A stretch of DNA of 64,000 nt, from NCBI RefSeq assembly GCF_020283565.1, contig NC_060060.1:63969257-64033256 (forward strand), written 5' to 3'. Under the pieces are notes generated by a model that was not told the DNA's origin, did not search any database, and saw only the letters and a list, made by a program, of their open reading frames with translations. Every line of letters starts with the position of its first letter. The first letter of the stretch is position 1. Source of the stretch: Trifolium pratense (lineage: Eukaryota; Streptophyta; Magnoliopsida; Fabales; Fabaceae). Both the position numbers and the translations under genes were made by a program. Below, one piece after another: positions 4,745 through 58,414 of this stretch.

Positions 4745-4920
4745 GTCATGTTAACTTGTGCCCTAAGGGCACATGTTAAGCTACCTAAAAATAGAAATAT
4801 GACATTTAATGATACAAATAATTTAATGTTTAGATAATTGAATATACCACAAGTTTAATAAATTTTTTCCACATTTATCTTCTTAACATGTGCCCTTAAG
4901 GGCACAAGTTAACATTCTCC
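4745..4920. mobile_element. MITE, probably Mutator-derived (about 176 bp)
   Basis: The termini are inverted copies of GTTAACTTGTGCCCTAAGGG, and each end contains its own small palindrome (TGCCCTTAAGGGCA). The flanks share an A-rich near-duplication (TTAAAAAA). A second member at 10498-12054 has a clear 9-bp target duplication, which assigns the family to Mutator-type insertion. Partial copies lie at 3502-3572 and 57826-57855. Confidence 0.8.
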
Positions 4921-5027
4921 TTAAAAAATACATTGAAATTGGGCATTATCCTAACAAACATTATATTTTAATGTTGGCCTCACCATTCATAGGAAAAATA
5001 AAAGAGAGAAAAGAATCCGACTTAATA

Positions 5028-5172
5028 CTTCACCGTTCTCTATATAATAGAAAATTTATTTTTTAGATTCATCGTAAAGTTGATGTATTTGGACTATAAT
5101 ATTGTCTAGATACATTAACTTTACGATGAATCTAAAATATAAATGTTTTCTTATATATACGACCGGAAGAAG
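5028..5172. mobile_element. Stowaway-like palindromic MITE
   Basis: A 145-bp element that is almost entirely a hairpin: TTTTAGATTCATCGTAAAG on the left is mirrored by CTTTACGATGAATCTAAAA on the right. It is flanked by TA on both sides. The TA duplication and CTTC..GAAG ends fit Tc1/mariner-type MITEs. Confidence 0.75.
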
Positions 5173-5426
5173 TATGTACTAATAAGGTCTAATTTAATTG
5201 ACAATATTGATATTAATAGATTAAATATTTTTACCCGAATTAGACACAATATTTCACGGTTATACTATAAATTATTATGATCAAACTTTTGGACCGAACA
5301 AAGTTCAATGTCACATTCGTCGGCCCCATACCACATCCATTAATTGGCCTATATATACAACTTTTTACCACCTCTTAAGGTATTTGTTACTCTAACTTCG
5401 ACCTCGAGATTATACTGACTTTCACA

Positions 5427-6389
5427 CAGTGTTTTAAAAACCGGATCGGACATCGAACCAGCGAGGGCACTGGTTCACTAGTTCACTGGTCGAACCACCG
5501 GGTCACTGGTCGAACCGCATGACTAAACCGGATTAAACCGGATAAATCGGTGGAATGAACCGATCTCTATAATAAAATTATATAGTTATTAAATCGATTG
5601 AACCGGATGACTCGCGCTACAAGAAAACATCATATGTTGACAAAATTTTTTGGAGTTTAAGCCCTCAAAATAAGTTACAAAATCTATTATTGAAGTCCCT
5701 AAGCCGCCAAGAAGTGGCACAATTTTTCAAAAATTCTGACAATCGCGTTATGAGTCATGGGCCGCAAACAAGTTTAAAAAAAAAGAGAAGATGGAATGGT
5801 GTGTCAAAAAAAAAAGAAAATGAATGGAACGGATCTGAACAAAACAAGGTTTTCATATTGTTTTTTTTTTCTGTCACAACTAAAAACAATATCTCTCATT
5901 TTTCACAAAAACAATTTCTCTTATTTGGTGATTAAAAAAATTTCTCTTCTTTCTCACAAAAACAGATCTGAACACAAATAAGCTTCTATGGTTGCCACCA
6001 ACCACCATGCCACCGTCATCTTCATGGGTTCCACACTACAAGAAAAATCAGATCTAAACACAAATAATAAATAAATTTCATGATTTCCACAGAAAAACCA
6101 GAATAATATTTTCACACTACAAAAGCTTCATATATAGTTGCCAACTAACCACTCGTCTTCTCTTTCTCGCCGCCAACCGTGTTTCTTTCTTTCTCCTATC
6201 TTTTTTTCTTTCTTCTCTTTCACTTGAAAAAAAGGACTTGCAATCAACCGGCGGTTTGGGGAAACCGCCGGTTTTCCTGGTTTCGAGCGGTTCGCGCCGG
6301 TTCAACTACACGTCCGATCCAACAACTGAACCAGACTAGAAACTCTCCGGTTCTCGGTCTGACCGGCCGGTCCGGTTTTTAAAACACTG
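5427..6389. mobile_element. Non-autonomous hAT-like element, 963 bp
   Basis: The terminal inverted repeats are CAGTGTTTTAAAAACCGG on the left and the complement ending AAAACACTG on the right. The subterminal regions are rich in ACCGG/CCGGT words (5490-5560 and 6240-6370), as in hAT elements with many transposase-binding sites. The 8-bp flanks CTTTCACA and CTTCACGA are similar but not identical. Internal open frames (for example 6117-6305) are short and unrecognised. A diverged relative of one end lies at 27745-27835 in an intron. Confidence 0.75.
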
Positions 6390-6786
6390 CTTCACGAATC
6401 CACTAATCACCAATGTGAATTCTCCACTCTCTTTTAACCGGTTTTTTTTTTCTTATAAAATTTTAAGCGGCGTTTATAACTACATCTACGCACAAACAAA
6501 TAGTCTTAATTATCAATAGTCAATTTATGAACGTGAGTATATAATAATTGTTGGACAATCATTGGACTTTATGAACCATTGAAGATGATAAGGGGACTGT
6601 TCATCTCTCATTGTCATAGTGGAAAATATAATGCCCGATAACCATATTTATTGCCACCCTTGTTATCATCATCATCATTTTTTTTTAAAGAATTTTGTTC
6701 TTTTTGTAACCTCGAAAATGACGACACAAATTATTTCTAATGATAATGGAGTTTACTTTCATAATGATTAAATTAAATTAACATTT

Positions 6787-6890
6787 TGATTCGATCCCCG
6801 CAACTGTGATCAGGAGTGACTATAACTACTTGATGTTAGATTAGGCGGTTCTGGTGAACCAAATATTGGTAGTGAAAATTGAAAACCAAA
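6787..6890. repeat. Dispersed low-copy repeat, copy 1 of 3
   Basis: It shares an ordered word set with 30245-30355 and 46686-46790: 'actgtgat', 'gactataactacttgatgt', 'aaccaaatattggtggtgaaa..'. The copies are diverged, without visible terminal repeats, so the class (SINE or LTR end) is undetermined. Confidence 0.4.
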
Positions 6891-6983
6891 AACAAAAAAA
6901 AATTATCATACCCTTACAATTTTTATGCTTATCTATCCATACCCTATTTTCTAAACACCCGAAGTTTCCTTTTGCATAGATTA

Positions 6984-7247
6984 CTCTTCCCTCCGTCCCA
7001 AAATATAAGAGCTAGTTTGTCTAATGCATATATGCCAACGCATAATTTTGATTGCTAATATTTTTAATTCCGTATTAGTAAAAATTATAAAAACTTGATA
7101 TTTTGAAAATACTCATCAAAACGAATCAAACAATATCTTATATGCTAATATTTATATCTATATATTATTAAAAAAATATGGCCAAAGCAAGATAAATGAA
7201 TAGTGTCATTTAGTCAAATTAGCTCTTATAAAATGTGATGGAGGGAG
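6984..7247. mobile_element. Stowaway-like MITE, 264 bp
   Basis: The ends are CTCTTCCCTCCGTCCCAAAA and ..TGGAGGGAG, flanked by TA on both sides. The internal words CAACGCATAATTTTGAT and CTTATATGCTAATATTTAT recur in the relative at 58174-58414. It ends 10 bp before the MULE that starts at 7258. Confidence 0.85.
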
Positions 7248-8100
7248 TAGTTAACATAGGTTCCCTCATTTGAGGATGCCTCTATTTAGCCCATAGATTA
7301 AATGGGTGAGTGCCATGTGAAAAAAAAACATCTAATGGTTGAGATTAGGTCTCAAAATATTAATATTTTTTTAATAAAAAATCAAAACAAAACCCTTAAG
7401 CGCGCGTCTTTTCTTCTTTTTCTCATCTTCTTTTTCTCATCTGCGTCTTTTCTTCTTCTTCTTCTTAACACAATCTTCACTTTCACTCGCCGCCGGATCT
7501 ACTTCTTCCTCTTTCACTCGCCGCCGGTTCAGCCGCCAGTCCTGCATTGGCCCTGTCTGTCTTCCCTAATCTTTTATCCACGCACGTACTTCGCCGTGAC
7601 GCCGTCTCGCCGTCATCGACATGAGCAATTACGCCGTCGCTACCACCGTCGTAACGAGCCAACACAACGTTTCTACTACTGTTAATGGTCAAGGTATTAT
7701 TTCTTTTTGAAACTGTACTTTGTTATTCTTGGTGTTTATTTTTTTTTGGTGAATGTTCTTGGTCTTCTTTTTTTTTTTTTTTTTTTTTTTTTGGTTACAT
7801 GTTCTTGGTCTTCTTTATTATTGCTATAACAGAATTAGATTCTTTTTTGTTATTCATTGAAACAAAATAATTTTATGTTGTTAATCGTTCTTGTTGTAAT
7901 TCCTTTCTCCCATGAATAGACTTAGCTGATTGTCTATGTTGCTGTATTTTTTTACTGAGATTGTTTTGTAATATTTGCTTCAGTAATCAGTTTAATTGTC
8001 TATGTTGCTGCATTGTTCATATGTGGTTGTGCTACAGCCTGTGTGTTTGTTATTGTTTTTTACAATCACTAACATCATCCCTCTATATTTTTCAGAAAAC

Positions 8101-9471
8101 ATGAATTCATCATTACCAAATTGTGTCGATAGTTTGGTGAACAATATCCAGGAACAAAATGTGCAACAAAGTATTGCCAACAGTGAACCTCACTTGGAAA
8201 TGGAGTTTGAATCTGAGGCATCGACTTATGATTTTTATAATGCGTATAGTAAAACAATTGGATTTGGTATTCGTCGAGAATATGGAAATAAAAGCAGAGT
8301 AGATGGAGTTTTGACTTCAAGAAGATTCACATGTTTCAAAGAGGGTATACGAAGTGTTGACAAAAGATGTCACTCGACAGCGGAGCCTAGAGCAGAAACT
8401 AGAACAGGGTGTCAAGCGCGTATGGCTATTTCACTTGATCGAAAGATAGGGAAATACAAGGTTGTTGACTTTATAGCTAAACATAACCACCCTCTTCAAC
8501 CGCCAGAGCATGTTCACATGATTCGCTCTCATCGACGCATATCTGAGGCACAAGCATCACAAATTGTCTTAGGAGATGAATCAGGATTAACACCAAAAGA
8601 TTTGCACGAATATATATCCAAACAAGCTGGTGGGATAGAGACTGTTGGTTTTACAAGAGAAGACCTTAAGAATTACCTTAAAACCAAAAGGAAGCAATCA
8701 CTAAAGTATGGTGAAGTAGGTGCATTGATGATGTATTTCAAACAAGAAAGTGAAAATCCCTCGTTCTTTTATGACTTTCAAATGGATGTGGACGAGCTAA
8801 TAACTAACATATTTTGGGCGGATGCACAAATGATAAATGATTATGGGTACTTTGGTGATGTCATAACATTTGATACCACATACAAGACAAATAAGGATTG
8901 TTGGCCATTAGGAGTATTTGTTGGACTTAATAATCACAGGCAAACAGTCATTTTTGGGGCAGCATTGTTATATGATGAAACAATACCTTCTTTTCAGTGG
9001 TTATTTGAAACCTTCCTCAAAGCGATGGGTGGAGCAAAGCCTAAAACTATGTTAACCGATCAAGATCCTGCTATGGCTAGGGCACTTTCTATAGTTATGC
9101 CGGAAACATTTAATGGATTGTGCACTTGGCATATAAGACATAACTCTTTGAGGCATGTGAATCATTTATATCAACAGAGTTCACGATTTTGTGGGGATTT
9201 TGTTATATTATGCAGCAACAAGCTACAATTCAGGGGACACAATCAAGCCAAGTTGACAATGAAACTCAACATCAAGTTACAATTCAAGGGACACAATCAA
9301 GCCAAGTTGACAATGGAACTCAACATCAAGTTACAATTCAAGGGACACAATCAAGCCAAGTTTACAATGAAACTCAACATCAAGTTACAATTTAAGGGAC
9401 ACAAGGGACACAATCAAGCCAAGTTGACGGTGGAACTCAACATCAAGTTACAATTCAAGGGACACAATTAA
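8101..9471 (+). CDS. FAR1-related MULE transposase, C-terminally truncated
   Basis: The ATG at 8101 (MNSSLPNCVDSL) follows a pyrimidine-rich tract and AG at about 8097, so an upstream 5' UTR intron is likely; the open frame itself extends back to 7996. About residues 35-130 form a FAR1-type DNA-binding domain (SEASTYDFYNAYSKTIGFGI, then an HNHPL zinc-ligand motif). Residues about 225-360 match the MULE transposase core: VITFDTTYKTN with the first Asp, LTDQDPAM with the second, and the CTWH motif. The expected third acidic residue and the SWIM zinc finger are missing. At about 9200 the frame runs into 54-bp tandem repeats and stops. This is a damaged or internally deleted transposase, probably inactive. 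Confidence 0.8.
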   Translation: MNSSLPNCVDSLVNNIQEQNVQQSIANSEPHLEMEFESEASTYDFYNAYSKTIGFGIRREYGNKSRVDGVLTSRRFTCFKEGIRSVDKRCHSTAEPRAETRTGCQARMAISLDRKIGKYKVVDFIAKHNHPLQPPEHVHMIRSHRRISEAQASQIVLGDESGLTPKDLHEYISKQAGGIETVGFTREDLKNYLKTKRKQSLKYGEVGALMMYFKQESENPSFFYDFQMDVDELITNIFWADAQMINDYGYFGDVITFDTTYKTNKDCWPLGVFVGLNNHRQTVIFGAALLYDETIPSFQWLFETFLKAMGGAKPKTMLTDQDPAMARALSIVMPETFNGLCTWHIRHNSLRHVNHLYQQSSRFCGDFVILCSNKLQFRGHNQAKLTMKLNIKLQFKGHNQAKLTMELNIKLQFKGHNQAKFTMKLNIKLQFKGHKGHNQAKLTVELNIKLQFKGHN

Positions 9472-9475
9472 GCGA
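9223..9475 (+). repeat. 54-bp tandem repeat at the 3' end of the transposase
   Basis: About 4.7 units of a 54-bp (18-codon) repeat with few substitutions; one unit has an extra 9 bp (GGACACAAG). The array stays open in two frames. The transposase frame gives LQFKGHNQAKLT-type repeats. The other gives TIQGTQSSQVDNGTQHQV-type repeats, whose Gln/Ser/Thr-rich composition looks more like the original coding frame. Confidence 0.85.
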
Positions 9476-9899
9476 GTTTCACAACTTCTTTTAGACATTT
9501 AATGTCTAAGTATTTTGATTTTAACTTTTTGGGAGACATTTTGTAATATGATCATCACTTGTTTATGTTTAACTGGTTTATGAATTATGACAATGAGATA
9601 TCTTTTATGTTTATGGTTTGTTAGTTTATGAATTATGTCAATGATATGTCCTTTATGTTTATGGTTTTTTTAGAGATATTTGATTCAATGGCATCACAAA
9701 TGACAAATGACTGGTTTACTGGTTTATAGAATTATTACAATGAAAATGACATTTTGTTTTTGTTCTATCTGGATGGTTTCAATTGGCAACACTAAGTATG
9801 TTGACAATTAAGTCAATTTCATCAAAATAACCAAGCTCAAAGGAATCAGGCTAAAAAAACAGTTTTAAAATATATTAACTAAAGAACGGTTAGGATATA
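9476..9899. other. MULE interior, non-coding
   Basis: AT-rich spacer between the two ORF regions of the element. It contains imperfect repeats of 'tttatgtttatggtttgttagtttatgaattatg' (9560-9670) but no gene. Confidence 0.5.
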
Positions 9900-10497
9900 T
9901 CAAAGTAATGACAGAGAAGAGGGCGGCGAAATGATTTCGAGCTGGCGAGACCAAGTGCAAACATAACTATATAACCTTGACATCATGAATAGCTTCATCA
10001 GTTTCTTGTTGTGCAGTTTCAGTAACAATGGAATATGTAACAATTGGCTCCACAACGATCTCTGCCGCAACATCCATATTATTAGTTTATTACTATTATT
10101 ATTATTATGCAGGTCCTTGACATCATGAATAGCTTCATCAGTTTCTTGTTGTGCAGTTTCAGTAACAATGGAATATGTAACAATTGGCTCCACAACGATC
10201 TCCGTCGTAGCATCCATATTATTACTATTATTATTATTATGCAGGTCCTTGACATCATGAATAGCTTCATCAGTTTCTTGTTGTGCAGTTTCAGTAACAA
10301 TGGAATATGTAACAATTGGCTCCACAACGATCTCCGCTGTAGCATCCATATTATTACTATTGTTATTATTATGCAGGTCCTTGACATCATGAATAGCTTC
10401 ATCAGTTTCTTGTTGTGCAGTTTCAGTAACAATGTAATTTGTAACAATTTGCTCCACAACGATCTCAGACTCAATATCAGCAACAACATAATTATTA
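9900..10497 (-). pseudogene. 3' part of DUF4283-like ORF with 132-bp coding repeats
   Basis: Minus-strand frame made of near-identical 44-residue units: EIVVEPIVTYSIVTETAQQE, then TDEAIHDVKDLHNNNNSNN. Repeat starts (the CCTTGACATCATGAATAGC word) lie at 9975, 10115, 10247 and 10379, so spacings are 140, 132 and 132 bp. The 140-bp spacing shifts the frame in the last unit. The acidic, Asn-rich repeats continue across the nested insertion into a partial unit at 12060-12110. Together with the domain fragment at 12105-12235 this was once one gene lying antisense to the transposase inside the MULE. It is broken by the insertion and by frame changes. Confidence 0.65.
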
Positions 10498-10537
10498 GGG
10501 TTATGTTAACTTGTGCCCTAAGAGCACATGTTAAGCT

Positions 10538-10865
10538 TGTTGGGAATAATGCCTAAATATCTTTTTTGGAAGATCTTAGATTTAAATATTATTTAGATTT
10601 ATATTTAAAATATGATAATATTAGGTTTTATGATTTATATTTCTATTTAGAATATTTAAGATTTGTTTAGAATTTATTATAGGATTAGTTTTGTTTTAAA
10701 AATATATGATTTGTTTTTATGTAGCTCTATATATAGAGCCATAAGCATGATGAATAAAATAAGAACTTTAGTATTCTTCATATAACCCTATATTTGAGGA
10801 GAGTTTTCTCCCTAAATTTATATCTCACCAAATTCCGCAATACAAAAACACAAAAAACCATATCA
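10538..10865 (+). repeat. TRIM 5' LTR
   Basis: 328 bp, TG...CA ends. A TATA-like CTCTATATATAGAG lies near 10722-10737, with downstream AATAAA at about 10752, plausible promoter and polyadenylation signals. Confidence 0.93.
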
Positions 10866-11019
10866 GTGGCATCAGAGCGCTAAGGTTCAGATCTGTGAAG
10901 ATGGAAGAAGATGATGAAGACGAAGAAAAAAGAAGAAACCATGAAATCAACAACTCATAACCTTGATTGCATCTTTATTATGAAGATGTGAAAAAGAAGA
11001 GAAAAACAACCCATAGCCA

Positions 11020-11245
11020 AAAACCATAACCATAACCTACACCTTTCATACGTTATATGCGAGATGGTTTCATGTATTATATAACCCATAACCATAACAA
11101 ATACATGAAAAAAGCTCAAGTCTCATATGAAGTTGTAGAAAAACCATAACCATAACCTGCATCTTTCATATGTTATATGCGAGATAGTTTCATGTATAAC
11201 CATAACAAATACATGAAAAAAGCTCAAGTCTCATATGAAGATGTA
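11020..11245. repeat. Tandem duplication of about 120 bp inside the TRIM
   Basis: The block containing TTTCATACGTTATATGCGAG, the ATACATGAAAAAAGCTC word and TCATATGAAGTTGTAG (11040-11140) recurs at 11160-11250 with small changes and a short deletion. Confidence 0.7.
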
Positions 11246-11583
11246 GACAACAAAAACAAAAATCAACATGAATCTCGGGCAGAATACAACATAAAAATAT
11301 TCAGTCAGGGAGGAGTGTTAAACAAAAACAGCAACAAAGAATGTGGATGAACAACAACAACAACAACAACAAAAATCAACATGAATCTCATGCTGGATAC
11401 AACACAAAGATATTCAGTCGAGGAGGAGTGTTCAAAAAAAAAAATTTCAACTCAAATCTCAGGTCGGATACAACACAAAGATATTCGGTCAAAGAGGAGA
11501 GACTTGATAAACAAAAAATACAATAAAATTTCAGTGCAAATCTCAGATTGGATACAACAAAAAGATATTCAGTCAAGGAGGAG

Positions 11584-11911
11584 TGTTGGGAATAATGCCT
11601 AAATATCTTTTTTGGAAGATCTTAGATTTAAATATTATTTAGATTTATATTTAAAATATGATAATATTAGGTTTTATGATTTATATTTCTATTTAGAATA
11701 TTTAAGATTTGTTTAGAATTTATTATAGGATTAGTTTTGTTTTAAAAATATATGATTTGTTTTTATGTAGCTCTATATATAGAGCCATAAGCATGATGAA
11801 TAAAATAAGAACTTTAGTATTCTTCATATAACCCTATATTTGAGGAGAGTTTTCTCCCTAAATTTATATCTCACCAAATTCCGCAATACAAAAACACAAA
11901 AAACCATATCA
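11584..11911 (+). repeat. TRIM 3' LTR
   Basis: Same length as the 5' LTR and no difference seen on direct comparison. It is followed directly by the AAGCT duplication and the remainder of the host MITE. Confidence 0.93.
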
Positions 11912-12059
11912 AAGCTACCTAAAAATAGAAATAGAGCATTTAATGGTAGAAAACATTTAATGTTTAGAAAATTGAATACACCACAAGTTCAATAAATGTT
12001 TTCTACATTTATCTTCTTAACATGTGCCCTTAAGGGTACAAGTTAACATTCTCCTAATT

Positions 12060-12420
12060 ATTATTATTATGCTGCGTTTCTTGTTGTGCAGGTTCTGTAA
12101 CAAAGCATTTCTCACTTCAATCCTTAAGGCGGAGCCTTCCCTTTCCACCGTAACTTCGTCAAAGATGCGACGTGAAAGGTCCATATCCACCAAAATTCGT
12201 GCGTAATGACCAAAAGTGCGGATCACGGGCAAATAACATCCATGGCCGCAAAGAACCAGACCAGGGCTTGAAAGAATCAGGAAAAAGATTCAGATGGCTG
12301 CATCAGATCGCAGAGAAAGGTCCAATCTTACCAAACAGAAGGAAGGTCCAACGGAGTCTGGGCAAAGAAAGTCGTTATAGAAACCCTAGCAGAGCTCCAT
12401 CGTAAAAATTAATACCTCAA
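12060..12420 (-). pseudogene. 5' part of DUF4283-like (zinc-knuckle class) ORF
   Basis: The minus frame ending near 12100 contains RTFGHYARILVDMDLSRRI followed by FDEVTVEREG. This matches the end of the DUF4283 domain that precedes a CCHC knuckle in legume retroelement-derived proteins. The sequence then passes into a partial 132-bp repeat unit (12060-12110) that continues across the nested MITE/TRIM at 9900-10497. Upstream (12235-12420) the frame is interrupted by stops. It was probably captured or carried by the MULE. Family recall only. Confidence 0.55.
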
Positions 12421-13030
12421 ATCAAGTATAACCAGACCATGTTTAATTCGAAATCAGTTACAAGAAAACTTAAATCTATGAGAAACTTTGCTTCCAGATC
12501 CGACTTATTTGTTTTTCAAAGATGATGGTAAGATTTAATTTTAAGGACTTGACCCAATCCGACGACGATGGATGTTACTTGTATGACGGCCATGGTCTTG
12601 TCCTCTAAGCTTTGACAGAATCGGTCATGGCTTGAAAACTCCATTGAAGCATGACGAGAGAATGAATTGGGTGAGTGAGAGAAAAAAATCATGTGCAGTG
12701 AAGACTATTATAATATTGTAAGGAAAAGTTTGATCTCAACCATTAGATGTTTTTTTTCCACATGGCACTCACCCATTTAATCTATGAGCTAAATGGAGGC
12801 ATCCTCAAATGGAGGGAACCTGCACCCGTTGTCATTACGCTCTTAATGAATAAAATATGTATAGGAATCCTATAACTTTTGAAATAAAGAAAAGGTTAAG
12901 GGTGGTTAGTTAGGTCCTAGCATATTAATCAAGCATTATCTTAAAACTAATGTGGCCCATGGTCGGTGCCATGACAACAAAGAATGGCCTCTTTCACAAT
13001 CACATTCATTTTATTATTGTAAACTCTTCA

Positions 13031-13156: not shown

Positions 13157-15017
13157 ATGGTGAAGATAACTTTTGGTACATTTGACGACTCTTTTAGCAT
13201 TGCTTCCATTAAGGCATATCTCTCAGAGTTCATTGCCACTCTGATTTTTGTGTTTGCGGGAGTTGGATCAGCCATTGCTTACAGTAAGTAGTGTTAAAGT
13301 GTGACTTTTATTTTTTGTCAAGAGATAAGAGGAATAGGTTGCGTAGTCTCCAGAGGTTTATAATTTTTTTTTCCGTCTCACATAATATTTGTCTCAAATC
13401 GTTCAAGTCACACATAGAATATGAGAAATGAGTACACTTAATAAGTCACCAACATTGTTCATGTCACGTCAATAACATAACAGGCACGTGTTTTTGTCAC
13501 GAAATATTTGAACAATGGTATTGACCTGATGTGCACGTAATAAGACTTAAAGGACCTATGCGATATAAATGTTGTTGTGAAGGAATAATCTGATATAATC
13601 AAACAACTTAAAGGACTAAAAGACTTATTTTGCTTTTTCATTAAGTCAAAATATTGCAATATTGGCAAAAACATAAGCTTATAGTTGGTACAAGTGTACA
13701 AGGAATGATGAAATGTGGTGGTTTTGTATTATGCAGATGAGCTTACATCAGATGCAGCCTTGGATCCAGCAGGTTTAGTGGCAGTAGCTGTGGCTCATGG
13801 ATTTGCACTATTTGTTGGTGTCGCCATCGCGGCCAACATCTCAGGTGGACATTTGAACCCCGCTGTCACTTTTGGATTAGCTATTGGAGGCAACATCACC
13901 ATCCTAACTGGTTTCTTCTATTGGATTGCCCAATTGCTTGGTTCAATTGTTGCATCTCTCCTCCTCAGCTATGTCACCTCTAAGGTATATTAAAAAGGCT
14001 TTGTCTAATGTGCAAGAGTGACTTAAGTCTTACACCATGCAAGACATTATTTTATTCGTTAGATGCATCAAGATCTATCATACCATCTTGCGATTGTAAA
14101 ACTAATGATAACATAATTTTAAGAATTATTTGTTTTAATTTTCTATTTTCCCGCTCGTGGCTGCGTACAAATTAATTTGTTTCAATGTTGGTCATAATTT
14201 CGATTATACCTTCCGAATTTATTTGTGCAAATTTTTTTTTTTGAGAAAAGGATAACAAGAGTTTCAGAATGAAGAGATGAACTTTTCAAGTGACAGAGGA
14301 GAGAGAACGAAAAATTAATTCTTTAACTAATTAATAAAAAATTGAATAAAAAAACTAAATAATATGATACTACGGTACATGTAACAATGTTATAGGTTAA
14401 TTTGATCCAATGGACATAACAAGTCTTGCACGGTGCAAGACTTAACTTACTCTTGCACAGTAGACTTCGCTTATTAAAAAATATGTTACACATTAATAAG
14501 TTCTTTTACTCTTAATCCTAAAACAACAAGGATTCAGAGTTCAATCGAGAGATGAATATAGTGTAATAAATGATTGTTTCAGTCAAAACTTGATTTCGAA
14601 TTCTTACAAACGATTAGTTAACTGTTGGATGTATATTTGCAGAGTGTTCCAACCCATGGAGTGGCTGCTGGATTGAACCCTATTGCAGGATTAGTGTTTG
14701 AGATTGTTATAACATTTGGGTTGGTTTACACTGTTTATGCCACAGCAGCTGACCCTAAAAAGGGTTCATTGGGTACCATTGCACCTATTGCTATTGGGTT
14801 CGTTGTGGGTGCCAACATCTTAGCGGCCGGTCCATTCAGTGGCGGTTCAATGAACCCGGCTCGCTCATTCGGTCCAGCTGTGGTTAATGGAAACTTTGCT
14901 GATAACTGGATCTACTGGGTTGGCCCATTGATAGGAGGAGGCTTGGCTGGGTTGATTTATGGTGACATCTTCATTGGTTCATATGCCCCAGCACCATCAA
15001 CTGAAACATACCCTTAG
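13157..15017 (+). CDS. TIP2: Tonoplast intrinsic protein, TIP2 (delta-TIP) aquaporin
   Basis: Exons 13157-13283, 13737-13984 and 14643-15017 join to 249 codons. The start is [13 protein letters not shown] and the end is [10 protein letters not shown]. Both pore motifs are intact: [12 protein letters not shown] in the second exon and [12 protein letters not shown] in the third, within six hydrophobic segments. Length and two-intron structure match the TIP family. The helix-2 His (VAHGFALF), the Ile in [12 protein letters not shown], and the Gly and Arg around the second NPA fit the His-Ile-Gly-Arg filter of TIP2, known to pass water and ammonia across the vacuolar membrane. The subfamily is supported by the FDDSF start and the [19 protein letters not shown] segment. 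Member number is not assigned. Confidence 0.95.
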
Positions 15018-21236: not shown

Positions 21237-24200
21237 TCAAGTTGGTGCATAGATATCTATCATGCCCAACTTGCCGATCAAATGCTCAAAGGTGAGTCTT
21301 GCTAAGCTTTTGGTCAAGATATCTGCAGTTTGCTGACTCGAAGTTACAAAAGGTAGACATATGATTCCGGCATCTAACTTCTCTTTTATGAAATGTCGAT
21401 CGATCTCAATATGCTTGGTTCTGTCATGTTGAACTGGGTTATGAGCTATGCTAATAGCGGCTTTACTATCAGAGTATAATTTCAATGGAAGCTCAATTTT
21501 CATCTTAAGCTCTTCTAGGACTATGTGGATCCATAATCCTTCACAAATACCTTGAGCCATAGCTCTAAACTCAGCTTCTGCACTACTTCTTGCTACAACT
21601 CCTTGTTTCTTGCTCCTCCATGTCACAAGATTACCCTAAACATAGGTACAATATCCGGAGGTTGATCTTCTGTCAGTGACTGAACCTGCCCAATCAGCAT
21701 CGGTAAAGATAGACACATTTCTTTCACTTGTCTTCTTAAAAAATAATCCCTTTCCCGGATTTGCTTTCAAATATCGCAGTATCCTATAGACTGCCTCAAG
21801 ATGTTCCTCAAAAGGAGAATGCATAAACTGACTTACTACACTAACCGAGAAAGCAATGTCAGGTCTAGTGTGTGACAAATAAATTAGTTTCCCAACCAAT
21901 CTCTGGTACCTTCCAGTATCAACAGGAACACTACCTTCTTCCCAAAGTTTTGCATTAGGATCCATGGGAGTATCTGCTGGTCGACATCCACTCATTCCTG
22001 TTTCTTTCAATAAATCTAGAATGTATTTTTGCTGGGAAACTACAATACCATCTTTTGATCGAGCAACCTCCATACCAAGAAAATATCTCATGGATCCCAA
22101 GTCCTTGATTTCAAAGTCTAATGCCATTTCAACTATATCATCTCCAGTAAGGACGATATCATCAACATAAACAATTAGGACAGCAATTTTTCCATCTTGG
22201 GAGAACTTTGTGAACAAGGTGTGGTCAGCTTGTCCTTGAATGTACCCTTGTTTCTTCATGGAATAAGTGAACTTTTCAAACCAAGCTCTAGGAGACTGCT
22301 TTAATCCATACAAATACTTATTTAGTTTGCATACATTTGATCCAAACTTGTCTTCAAAACCAGGAGGAATGTCCATATATACTTCTTCTTCTAAATTACC
22401 ATTGAGAAAAACATTCTTAACATCCAACTGATGTAGGGGCCAATCTAAGTTAGCAGCAAGAGACAAAAGAATTTTGATAGTGTTCAATTTTGCAACAGGA
22501 GCAAAAGTCTCTGAGTAGTCTATACCATAGGTTTGAGTAAAACCCTTAGCCACCAATCGAGCCTTGTACCTTTCGATTGACCCATCTGAATTATACTTCA
22601 CAGTAAACACCCATTTGCATCCAACCATCTTCTTGCCATCCGGTAGTGTCATAACACTCCAGGTTTTGTTCTTTTCAAGAGCTTTCATCTCCTCAAGTAC
22701 AGCTTCCCTCCACTTTGGAACTTCTAGAGCAACCTGTACATTTTTTGGAATCTCTACACTAGACAATTTTGAGGTAAAGGCAGAAAAAGATGAAGACAAA
22801 TTTGAATATGATATAAAATTGGACAATGGGTATTTAGTGCAAGATCTAACAGGTTTTCTAACAGCCACAGGATCATCAATATCAGGATACAAAATACGAC
22901 TCTCAGAAACAGAGATAGACTTACCTTTTCTTTTTTTAGGAAGTTGATCATCCTCCGGTTCAGATTCATGACAGTGTTGAGATGTGGACTCATCACTTTC
23001 TTTGTGATTCTTTCTCACAAAAACCTTTTCTTTCCAAGTCTTGTTTCCTGCTTCAAACCTATTATCTTTATATGACTCATTATTTTGTGGCATTTCAATT
23101 AGATCATCATTATCATTGTTTTCAAGATTCTCATTGTTTTCTTCATGAGAAAATGTAGGCTCGGATTCACCAAGCTCACTACTCATAACAGGAGTAGGAT
23201 TAGATAAAGAATCATGGTCATTTTTCGTTGGTGCAGAAGTATAAGTCTTAGAACTTTGTGATACCGGCAAAGATAAATTATTAAAAAAACTCATGTCCTC
23301 AGTTTGAAACGAGTTAAAAAAACTCATGTCCTCAGTTTGAGACGAATCTTCATTTAAATTTCCCCCCTGAAGATGCGTGTCAAAAAAAGGTTTGTTTTCA
23401 AAGAATGTAACATCCATGGTGACAAACATTTTCTGGTTTTTTGGATCAAAACATTTATATCCTTTATGGGTTGGAGAATACCCAACAAAAACACATTTTA
23501 TAGCATGCAGTTCGAGTTTGCTAATATTCTTATGTTCATGAACAAATGCAGTGCAACCAAAGATTTTTAAGGTCAAATCGTTTGAAACACGATCATTAGG
23601 AAAACATTCTTTGAAAATATGAATTGGAGTTTTAAAATTAAGAACTTTGGAGGGCACTCTGTTAATTAAGTATGCAGCAGTTAAAACTGCTTCACCCCAC
23701 AAATAATTTGGTACTTTACTTGCGAAAAGTAAAGCTCTAGCCACCTCCAACAAGTGCCTATTTTTTCTTTCTGCAACTCCATTTTGTTGGGGAGTGTTAG
23801 GACATGAACTTTGATGCACAATTCCATTTTCACGAAAAAAATCACTCAACATTGTGTTAAAATATTCTTTGCCGTTATCACTTCTAAATACTTGAATATT
23901 TGTTTGAAATTGATTTTGCACCATCTTAACAAAATCTTTTACGGCCTAACAAACGTCAGATTTCCCCTTTAACAAGTACACCCAACAAACTCTTGAGTGA
24001 TCATCTATAAATGTGATAAACCATTTTTTATGAGAAAGTGTACTCGTTCGGTTAGGACCCCAAACATCACTGTGAATAACATAAAAAGGTTTTGATGGTT
24101 TGTAGGGCTGTAATGGAAAATGAGAACGATGATGTTTTGCAAATTCACATGCTTCACATTTAAACAAAGATAAATCCTTATTACGAAATAACTCAGGAAA

Positions 24201-24902
24201 TAAGTGTTTTAAATAAGGAAAACTAGGATGACCTAATCGTGAATGCCATAACATAACATCATCATTATTATTATTCAGAACTAAAAAGGATTCAAAGCAT
24301 GAACTTATTGGTTTGGAAGGTAGTTGTGATTCAGGTTCAATGTCGAAGTAGTAGAGTCCTCCACTCTCCTTAGCACTACCAATCATCTTCCCCGAGTTCA
24401 AATCCTGAAAAACGCAATGAGTACGGAAAAAATTAGTTTGACAATTTCTATCTTGGGCTAATTTACTGATAGACATGAGACAACAAGATAGATTTGGGAC
24501 ATGAAGAACATCTTTAAGGGTTAGACTTGGAGACAACACAACCGAACCTTTACCCGCAATGGCTGAAAAGGATCCATCCGCAATTTTTATTTTATGGTTA
24601 CCTGCACATGGACTATAAGAAGAAAACAGAGTAGAATCACCTATCATGTGATCACTTGCACCTGAATCTACTATCCAAGCACGACTGGGACTGACACTAA
24701 AAAGGGCAGAAGTACCTTTGGGGGCACCAGAGCCAGAAAGAGTGTTAGATTCAAGAATTTTGTACAGTTTGTCTAGTTGTTCCATCGTGAATGAAAGCTG
24801 AATTGAAATAAAACTGATGTTCTTGATCAGAATTACTGGCTTGGAATGTATGACCCTCCCCTCCACCTTTGTTCTTTTGATTTGAAGGTCGCGGAAGACC
24901 AT
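21237..24902 (-). pseudogene. Copia pol polyprotein with two nonsense codons
   Basis: Three same-strand segments. 24902-23946: protease remnant and GAG-pre-integrase (LWHSRLGHPSFPYLKHL), then the start of integrase (SDVWGP, ITFIDDHSR). 23924-21636: the rest of integrase (NGVAERKNRHLLE), reverse transcriptase with YVDDIVLTGDD, and a copia linker ending in DRRSTSGYC. 21626-21237: RNase H (SSAEAEFRAMAQ to KLGMI). In-frame TAG codons lie at 23948-23946 and 21638-21636. A short deletion is likely after TGDDIVEM, where the spacing to FEIKDLG is reduced. It is not expected to give a full polyprotein. Confidence 0.93.
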
Positions 24903-24960
24903 GTAATTTCCAAAATTGAAAAATAGTATGTCCCAAACGATGACAATATGTGTTTGTTAA
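24750..24960 (-). pseudogene. Residual copia gag end (zinc knuckle)
   Basis: A minus-strand frame with CHRLGHTIFQFWKLHG resembles a copia gag zinc knuckle (CxxxGHxxxxCWKLHG), but the last Cys is replaced by Phe. Reading on requires a frameshift to enter the pol frame around 24780-24900. Upstream gag is absent and replaced by a MITE. Confidence 0.6.
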
Positions 24961-58173: not shown

Positions 58174-58414
58174 CTACCTTCGTCCGTAACTATAACATCC
58201 TGATTGACCACATCACGTACGCCAATGCACAATTTTGATCACTAATATCTTTAATTCTTTATTAGTAAAAATTTAATATTTTGAAAATACTTATCAAAAC
58301 AAATTGAACAAGATCTTATATGCTAATATTTATATTTATTTATATATTATTAGAAAAACACGGTCAAAACAAGATAAACAAATGATATATTTTTGTCAGT
58401 AAGAACGGAGGCGG
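58174..58414. mobile_element. Stowaway-like MITE, diverged relative of 6984-7247
   Basis: Shares CGCAATGCACAATTTTGAT-type and CTTATATGCTAATATTTAT words in the same order. The ends are eroded (CTACCTTCGTCCGTAAC and AAGAACGGAGGCGG) and flanked by TA. Confidence 0.75.

Follow-up and report, generated by a model that had tools for sequence, protein, structure and literature searches.

Plant Mutator-like elements (MULEs) that bear a transposase can themselves be hosts to other transposons. Nested insertions, among them miniature inverted-repeat transposable elements (MITEs) and long terminal repeat (LTR) elements, occur in 36% of 530 candidate coding MULEs of maize and in 41% of 476 of rice (Zhao and Jiang 2014, PMC3903597). 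Here, we analyse a likewise transposase-bearing element of red clover (Trifolium pratense, genome of 413.6 Mb), located in a window of 64,000 nucleotides (C2:63969257-64033256; the window is the whole stretch of DNA analysed, and positions below refer to it). We hold with good confidence that the element, at 7258-12821, is a FAR1-type MULE without a complete transposase that holds an antisense fragment of the first open reading frame (ORF1) of a long interspersed nuclear element (LINE), that a MITE then entered the repeat array of this fragment, and that a terminal-repeat retrotransposon in miniature (TRIM) then entered the MITE. The nest thus comprises four transposon types, one to each layer: MULE, LINE piece, MULE-type MITE and TRIM. 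In red clover, the layers are stacked inside each other (TRIM in MITE in LINE piece in MULE), whereas nesting depth is not counted in the relevant passages of the maize and rice study. Given the frequencies reported there, this is a well-preserved but ordinary case of nesting. Its value lies in a clean relative-dating record, with four transposon types in one stack.

Each layer has described counterparts. The MuTAnT elements of Medicago truncatula are, like the clover MITE, short legume MULE-type elements with 9-nt duplications and AT-rich target sites; their terminal inverted repeat mask is GGGGTTTGCTAGAACA, compared with GGGTTATGTTAACTTG in clover, and they target mostly (TA)n, whereas the clover MITE targets are AT-rich in general (PMC4486113). 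Plant TRIMs are described as small, non-coding elements with two LTRs and a 5-bp duplication (PMC4717578), which fits the clover TRIM, although the latter has LTRs of 328 bp and is not assigned to a family. Celine and other plant LINEs have an ORF1 with DUF4283, followed by ORF2 (PMC11288735); the clover LINE copies most similar to our fragment (loci L060 and L061) are without most of ORF2, and the window holds an ORF1 piece only. Pack-MULEs, as described in PMC8903248, likewise carry foreign coding fragments between MULE ends, but the window element also holds a transposase piece, and its fragment appears to stem from another transposon. The listings from literature searches (DUF4283 with Mutator-like, FAR1 or transposon; Pack-MULE, nesting and LINE topics) showed no record of this locus or of a DUF4283-carrying MULE. 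DUF4283 and FAR1 occurred together in an alfalfa single-nucleotide polymorphism study.

The two innermost layers are the most directly legible:

10489-10497, no strand: left copy of the MITE target-site duplication TAATTATTA, read at the MITE end
10498-12054, forward strand: MULE-type MITE of 178 bp, split by the TRIM and delimited by its ends and family copies
10533-10537, no strand: left copy of the TRIM target-site duplication AAGCT, flanking the LTR
10538-11911, forward strand: TRIM of 1,374 bp, with LTRs at 10538-10865 and 11584-11911 and an internal part of 718 bp
11912-11916, no strand: right copy of the TRIM target-site duplication AAGCT, flanking the LTR
12055-12063, no strand: right copy of the MITE target-site duplication TAATTATTA, which extends into a TTA run, so that its exact edge could slide

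The MITE has the ends GGGTTATGTTAAC and GTTAACATTCTCC, its 178 bp being counted without the TRIM. A first look at the genome gave 1,597 candidate places for the family. Forty of these were scored, 39 of them being other copies, all of which begin exactly at the TRIM site. We then examined 30 copies (29 of the 39, plus one in the window at 4745-4921). All 30 are near full length and empty at the TRIM site, and in 25 of them a perfect duplication of 9 bp flanks the same two ends. As the best match was chosen by alignment length, L028 and L042 were scored on a lower-identity alignment (77% and 89%; 95% each otherwise), and both are free of the TRIM. The 1,597 candidates and the 25 perfect duplications at constant ends argue that the MITE is not a chance match; it is short, non-coding, multi-copy and fixed in its ends. 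The copy at 4745-4921 is 91% identical, and thus an empty TRIM site can be seen within the window itself.

The TRIM is a small LTR element without coding capacity (the longest stop-to-stop frame is of 84 aa). Its two LTRs show zero differences over 328 bp. TGGCATCAGAGCG follows the 5' LTR and AAGGAGGAG precedes the 3' LTR; these may fit an initiator-Met tRNA primer-binding site and a polypurine tract. A second TRIM copy, in L048, has LTRs identical at 326 of 331 positions and its own duplication, GATAC/GATAC. At a substitution rate of 1.3e-8 per site and year, as given in PMC3903597, the absence of any difference between the LTRs puts the age of the window copy, by our own arithmetic, probably below about 0.35 million years. 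In L048, this copy (1014-2877) has another MITE of the family described above ~400 bp away.

The entry of the MITE is recorded by its duplication, and that of the TRIM by both its duplication and the empty sites. A first-pass annotation of this DNA had claimed these two insertions, i.e. a MITE with a 9-bp duplication in a 132-bp array and a TRIM with an AAGCT duplication in the MITE. Both stand: array sequence resumes on the far side of the MITE, and the TRIM's identical LTRs, flanking AAGCT, second copy and 30 empty sites all agree. The order that it had read (MITE into array, TRIM into MITE, all within a MULE) likewise holds.

The outer element is made up of the following parts:

7258-7345, forward strand: left terminal inverted repeat of the MULE, without its outermost bases, which read GAGTGC or GAGTTC in relatives
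7621-7693, forward strand: transposase exon 1, as in the database model P0001, starting MSNYAVATTVV (coordinates by eye)
8096-9202, forward strand: transposase exon 2, with the FAR1 DNA-binding and MULE domains, ending ~9198-9202 at an internal deletion
9213-9490, forward strand: 54-bp repeats behind the deletion, which in L011 come after the stop of a 359-aa frame (last exon or 3' untranslated region)
9491-9979, forward strand: 3' region of the transposase gene, common to L011 up to 9979
12435-12732, forward strand: right subterminal region (12435-12809 is 96.8% identical to L011)
12733-12821, reverse strand: right terminal inverted repeat of the MULE, the element end possibly being 12827 judged from relatives, which would give a locus of C2:63976514-63982083

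As the first-pass annotation had proposed, MULE terminal repeats enclose all the layers. In a pairwise alignment the long terminal inverted repeats are identical at 85 of 88 aligned positions, with one gap, and a repeat finder places their core at 7267-7345 and 12733-12811. Between them, 8101-9468 matches the Pfam families FAR1 (PF03101, 85.2 bits) and MULE (PF10551, 90.3 bits), as expected of a MULE transposase. The right end reads CCTGCACCC up to 12827, and the left end is without the first bases of the form found in relatives, GAGTGCAGGTTCCC. Searching the genome with the left repeat gave nine scored matches, two of which are the window element's own ends. Three short relatives (L013, L015 and L016) end in GAGTGCAGGTTCCC or near it and are flanked on both sides by 9-bp target-site duplications (ATCTTGGAC, GTCTAACTT and CACATACAT, read by eye), the length expected of MULEs. 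Because no such duplication has been kept around the window copy, we class it only as a decayed member: its insertion footprint is lost, and its status as a MULE comes from its ends and transposase. Two further relatives, L010 and L011, keep inner MULE parts in an order colinear with the window. Read by eye, L010 (on C3) appears to be interrupted at ~4750-8545 by ~3.8 kb, which may be an LTR element or another repeat.

The transposase has lost its C-terminal half. A protein search with it yielded 596 matches at E <= 0.001 among 2,294 candidates (120 listed). The database model of the window gene is P0001, a ‘protein FAR1-RELATED SEQUENCE 5-like’ of 482 aa. Set against longer relatives, for example P0002 (609 aa, SWIM at 20.1 bits), the window frame diverges after HLYQQSSRF. 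In L011 (on C3), the C-terminal half is present as an open frame of 359 aa (SWIM at 16.9 bits, under the cut-off of 19.6), followed by last-intron-like sequence and then by the 54-bp repeats. The window exon passes straight into the intron-like sequence at ~9198-9202, with ~1.2 kb lost judged from L011. The final ~94 residues of P0001 come from repeat-rich DNA whose L011 counterpart is found past the stop codon of the 359-aa frame. With the half that contains the SWIM region absent here and present in L011, the window element does not qualify as an autonomous MULE, and this copy cannot produce a full transposase. The locus is a good test case for annotation, in that a broken gene has been modelled as a FAR1-RELATED SEQUENCE 5-like protein. 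Microhomology at the deletion was considered and is not demonstrable, as no fetched relative retains DNA on both sides.

Opposite in orientation to the transposase lies the foreign fragment, in three parts:

9975-10488, reverse strand: 132-bp repeat array, with antisense units like the repeated tail of a LINE ORF1
12064-12110, reverse strand: partial array unit beyond the MITE, where array-like sequence continues
12112-12221, reverse strand: LINE ORF1 piece corresponding to residues 196-231 of the red clover protein P0121 (the end of DUF4283 and the following linker)

The repeat finder delimits the array at 9975-10466 (period 132, 3.7 copies). The first-pass annotation had described a DUF4283-like ORF next to the transposase. 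The antisense ORFs have no Pfam match to DUF4283 of their own, and the relationship appears only in comparison with P0121. An X-padded piece of 61 residues matched 15 of 24 candidate proteins, the best being P0121 at 92% over 36 residues. This protein of 397 aa has DUF4283 at 82.1 bits and a zinc knuckle at 25.3 bits (below the cut-off of 27). Its residues 196-231 are retained at 12220-12113; after a gap, there follow units like its repeated tail (EIVVEPIVT...DLQNNN), which form the 132-bp array. Most of the N-terminal part and the zinc knuckle are absent. We thus call the antisense ORF a fragment and not a member of the DUF4283 family, since it retains no more of the domain than its final residues, along with the sequence after it.

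At the DNA level, a genome search with 12060-12440 found 11 places, the window and ten others, all of the others matching within 12112-12228 only. Three of the ten were extended (L060, L061 and L062). The closest, L060 and L061, are 91.8% identical to the window piece over 110 bp and have a P0121-like ORF1 with a repeated tail (the tail frames being shifted), a LINE ORF2 of which the beginning (MKIIFFWNLRGIGNP...) runs directly into an RNase H-like end, and poly(A). Direct repeats of 17 bp in L060 and 9 bp in L061 surround the whole LINE copy. L062 has a more distant ORF1 (~60%). With such relatives, the antisense ‘DUF4283-like ORF’ is most likely a broken piece of a LINE ORF1 and not a partner gene of the transposase. 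The repeats probably predate the arrival of the fragment in the MULE, given that the ORF1 tails of L060 and L061 have repeats as well. In plant LINEs, DUF4283 has been reported to be conserved as a domain of ORF1 (PMC11288735), and it is listed among the families over-represented in plant pseudogenes (PMC7935947), which fits a decayed fragment. A ‘gene’ beside a transposase can thus be the scrap of another transposon.

L060 (4352-6763) and L061 (4291-6754, reverse strand) are LINE copies 95-97% alike over two main aligned blocks. Both have kept ORF1 (DUF4283, zinc knuckle and repeated tail) and lost most of ORF2, and each has its own direct repeats. They may have been mobile as ORF1-only LINEs, in the manner of HAL1 in mammals.

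Put together, the layers suggest a sequence of events in which the earlier steps are inferred from relatives. The MULE would at the outset have borne a FAR1-MULE transposase gene. An antisense LINE ORF1 fragment of the DUF4283 family would then have come to lie between the 3' end of this gene and the right end of the element, its repeated tail forming the 132-bp array. An internal deletion, which may fall anywhere among these steps, would have taken the C-terminal half of the transposase. The MULE-type MITE then entered the AT-rich part of an array unit with a 9-bp duplication, and the TRIM finally entered the MITE with a 5-bp duplication, recently enough for its LTRs to be identical.

Several findings weigh against parts of this reading. 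No recognisable target-site duplication flanks the window MULE: the best candidate, a diverged pair GTTAACATA/GTTGTCATT, agrees at 6 of 9 positions, which 1,106 of 2,000 random pairs equalled, and we rejected it as no better than chance. The first-pass annotation had proposed comparing the element with its genomic copies; L010 and L011 provided the colinear inner parts, yet a complete copy with this layout is absent from the seven loci extended, and the scored genomic matches to the terminal repeat number only nine. As for the LINE fragment, the ORF2 remnants of L060 and L061 fall under the curated Pfam cut-offs (RVT_3 at 16.1 and Exo_endo_phos at 13.7 bits). Between the array DNA and the ORF1 tails, identity is no more than 62-73% in the longer matches (84-93% in matches of 29-38 bp), and the array searched as protein against a large database matched none of 4,165 candidates. 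A preserved ORF1 start codon near 12245 was rejected as not clearly significant, with 25 of 500 shuffles scoring as high. Lastly, 12229-12434, which separates the LINE piece from the right MULE region, is without explained origin and had no other match in the genome search.

How the LINE piece came to lie in the MULE, by capture or by insertion followed by trimming, is where our reading is less certain, capture being the less certain part. The relevant comparison is with L011, which shares 9198-9979 and 12435-12809 with the window in the same order. Similarity between the two extends to 9979 (93% over 9267-9979), breaks off there and resumes at 12435. In place of 9980-12434, L011 has a short frame antisense to its transposase. 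In the terms of a Pack-MULE comparison, the window fragment is LINE-like and the L011 piece LRAT-like, the latter at 18.7 bits and below the cut-off of 24.3. This may hint at a MULE family with a preferred capture slot between the transposase 3' end and the right subterminal region, where unrelated antisense coding fragments (a piece of LINE ORF1 in the window and an LRAT-like exon in L011) are exchanged while both sides stay unchanged. Two copies alone do not establish such a slot, and we regard the idea as tentative and rather unlikely; if true, it would offer a place to study how MULEs acquire fragments. An ordinary LINE insertion, later trimmed at both ends, with the L011 slot filled independently, is possible though still somewhat doubtful. 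In its favour, clover LINEs of this family have retroposed copies that bear poly(A) and direct repeats, and the window fragment preserves ORF1 order. Against it, the fragment lacks the LINE 3' end, the part that retroposition usually preserves; inspection by eye, in no systematic search, showed neither poly(A) nor ORF2 nor a duplication flanking the fragment; and the same two borders enclose an unrelated fragment in L011.

The antisense ORF might otherwise be a functional second gene of the MULE family, degraded in the window copy alone, much as MuDR has mudrB as its second gene. It does adjoin the transposase in the opposite orientation, and a second gene of ill-defined function is mentioned for Mutator elements in PMC4486113. 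Still, the genomic sequences most closely related to the piece, L060 and L061, are LINE copies, the three extended matches (of the ten others) have no MULE end or transposase match, and L011 has its LRAT-like piece at that position, which together make a second gene highly improbable. The first-pass annotation had suggested a MULE that acquired, or co-evolved with, a non-transposase gene; on the same evidence co-evolution is not supported, and an acquired gene gives way to a LINE fragment. It had also named the case in which the repeats at 7258 and 12821 belong to unrelated elements. Two ends from different MULEs, joined by chance or recombination, would account for the absence of a duplication around the element, the missing left terminal bases and a Stowaway-like MITE abutting the left end. 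In a multiple alignment with a misplaced one-base gap, the right end, at 90.9% to the left end, is even slightly nearer to L010 (92.1%) and L011 (92.2%). With the gap correctly placed, however, the window's two ends are 96.6% identical, above all other pairs among the ten terminal repeat pairs compared (the next, the right end with L012, reaches 96.2% with five gaps), and the two colinear relatives keep the inner order. We thus consider unrelated ends improbable, and favour one decayed MULE that holds a LINE ORF1 fragment.

The surroundings of the MULE contain other elements and a gene. The Stowaway-like MITE on its left (~6984-7249) has the ends CTCCGTCCC, stops 8 bp before the left end of the MULE and has a 77% relative at 58177-58378. 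On the right, a gene at 13157-15017, which looks like a tonoplast aquaporin, starts ~340 bp past the MULE, and the MULE therefore sits in the upstream region of this gene. Farther along, open frames at 21636-24956 resemble, by eye, a copia-type polyprotein with integrase and reverse transcriptase.

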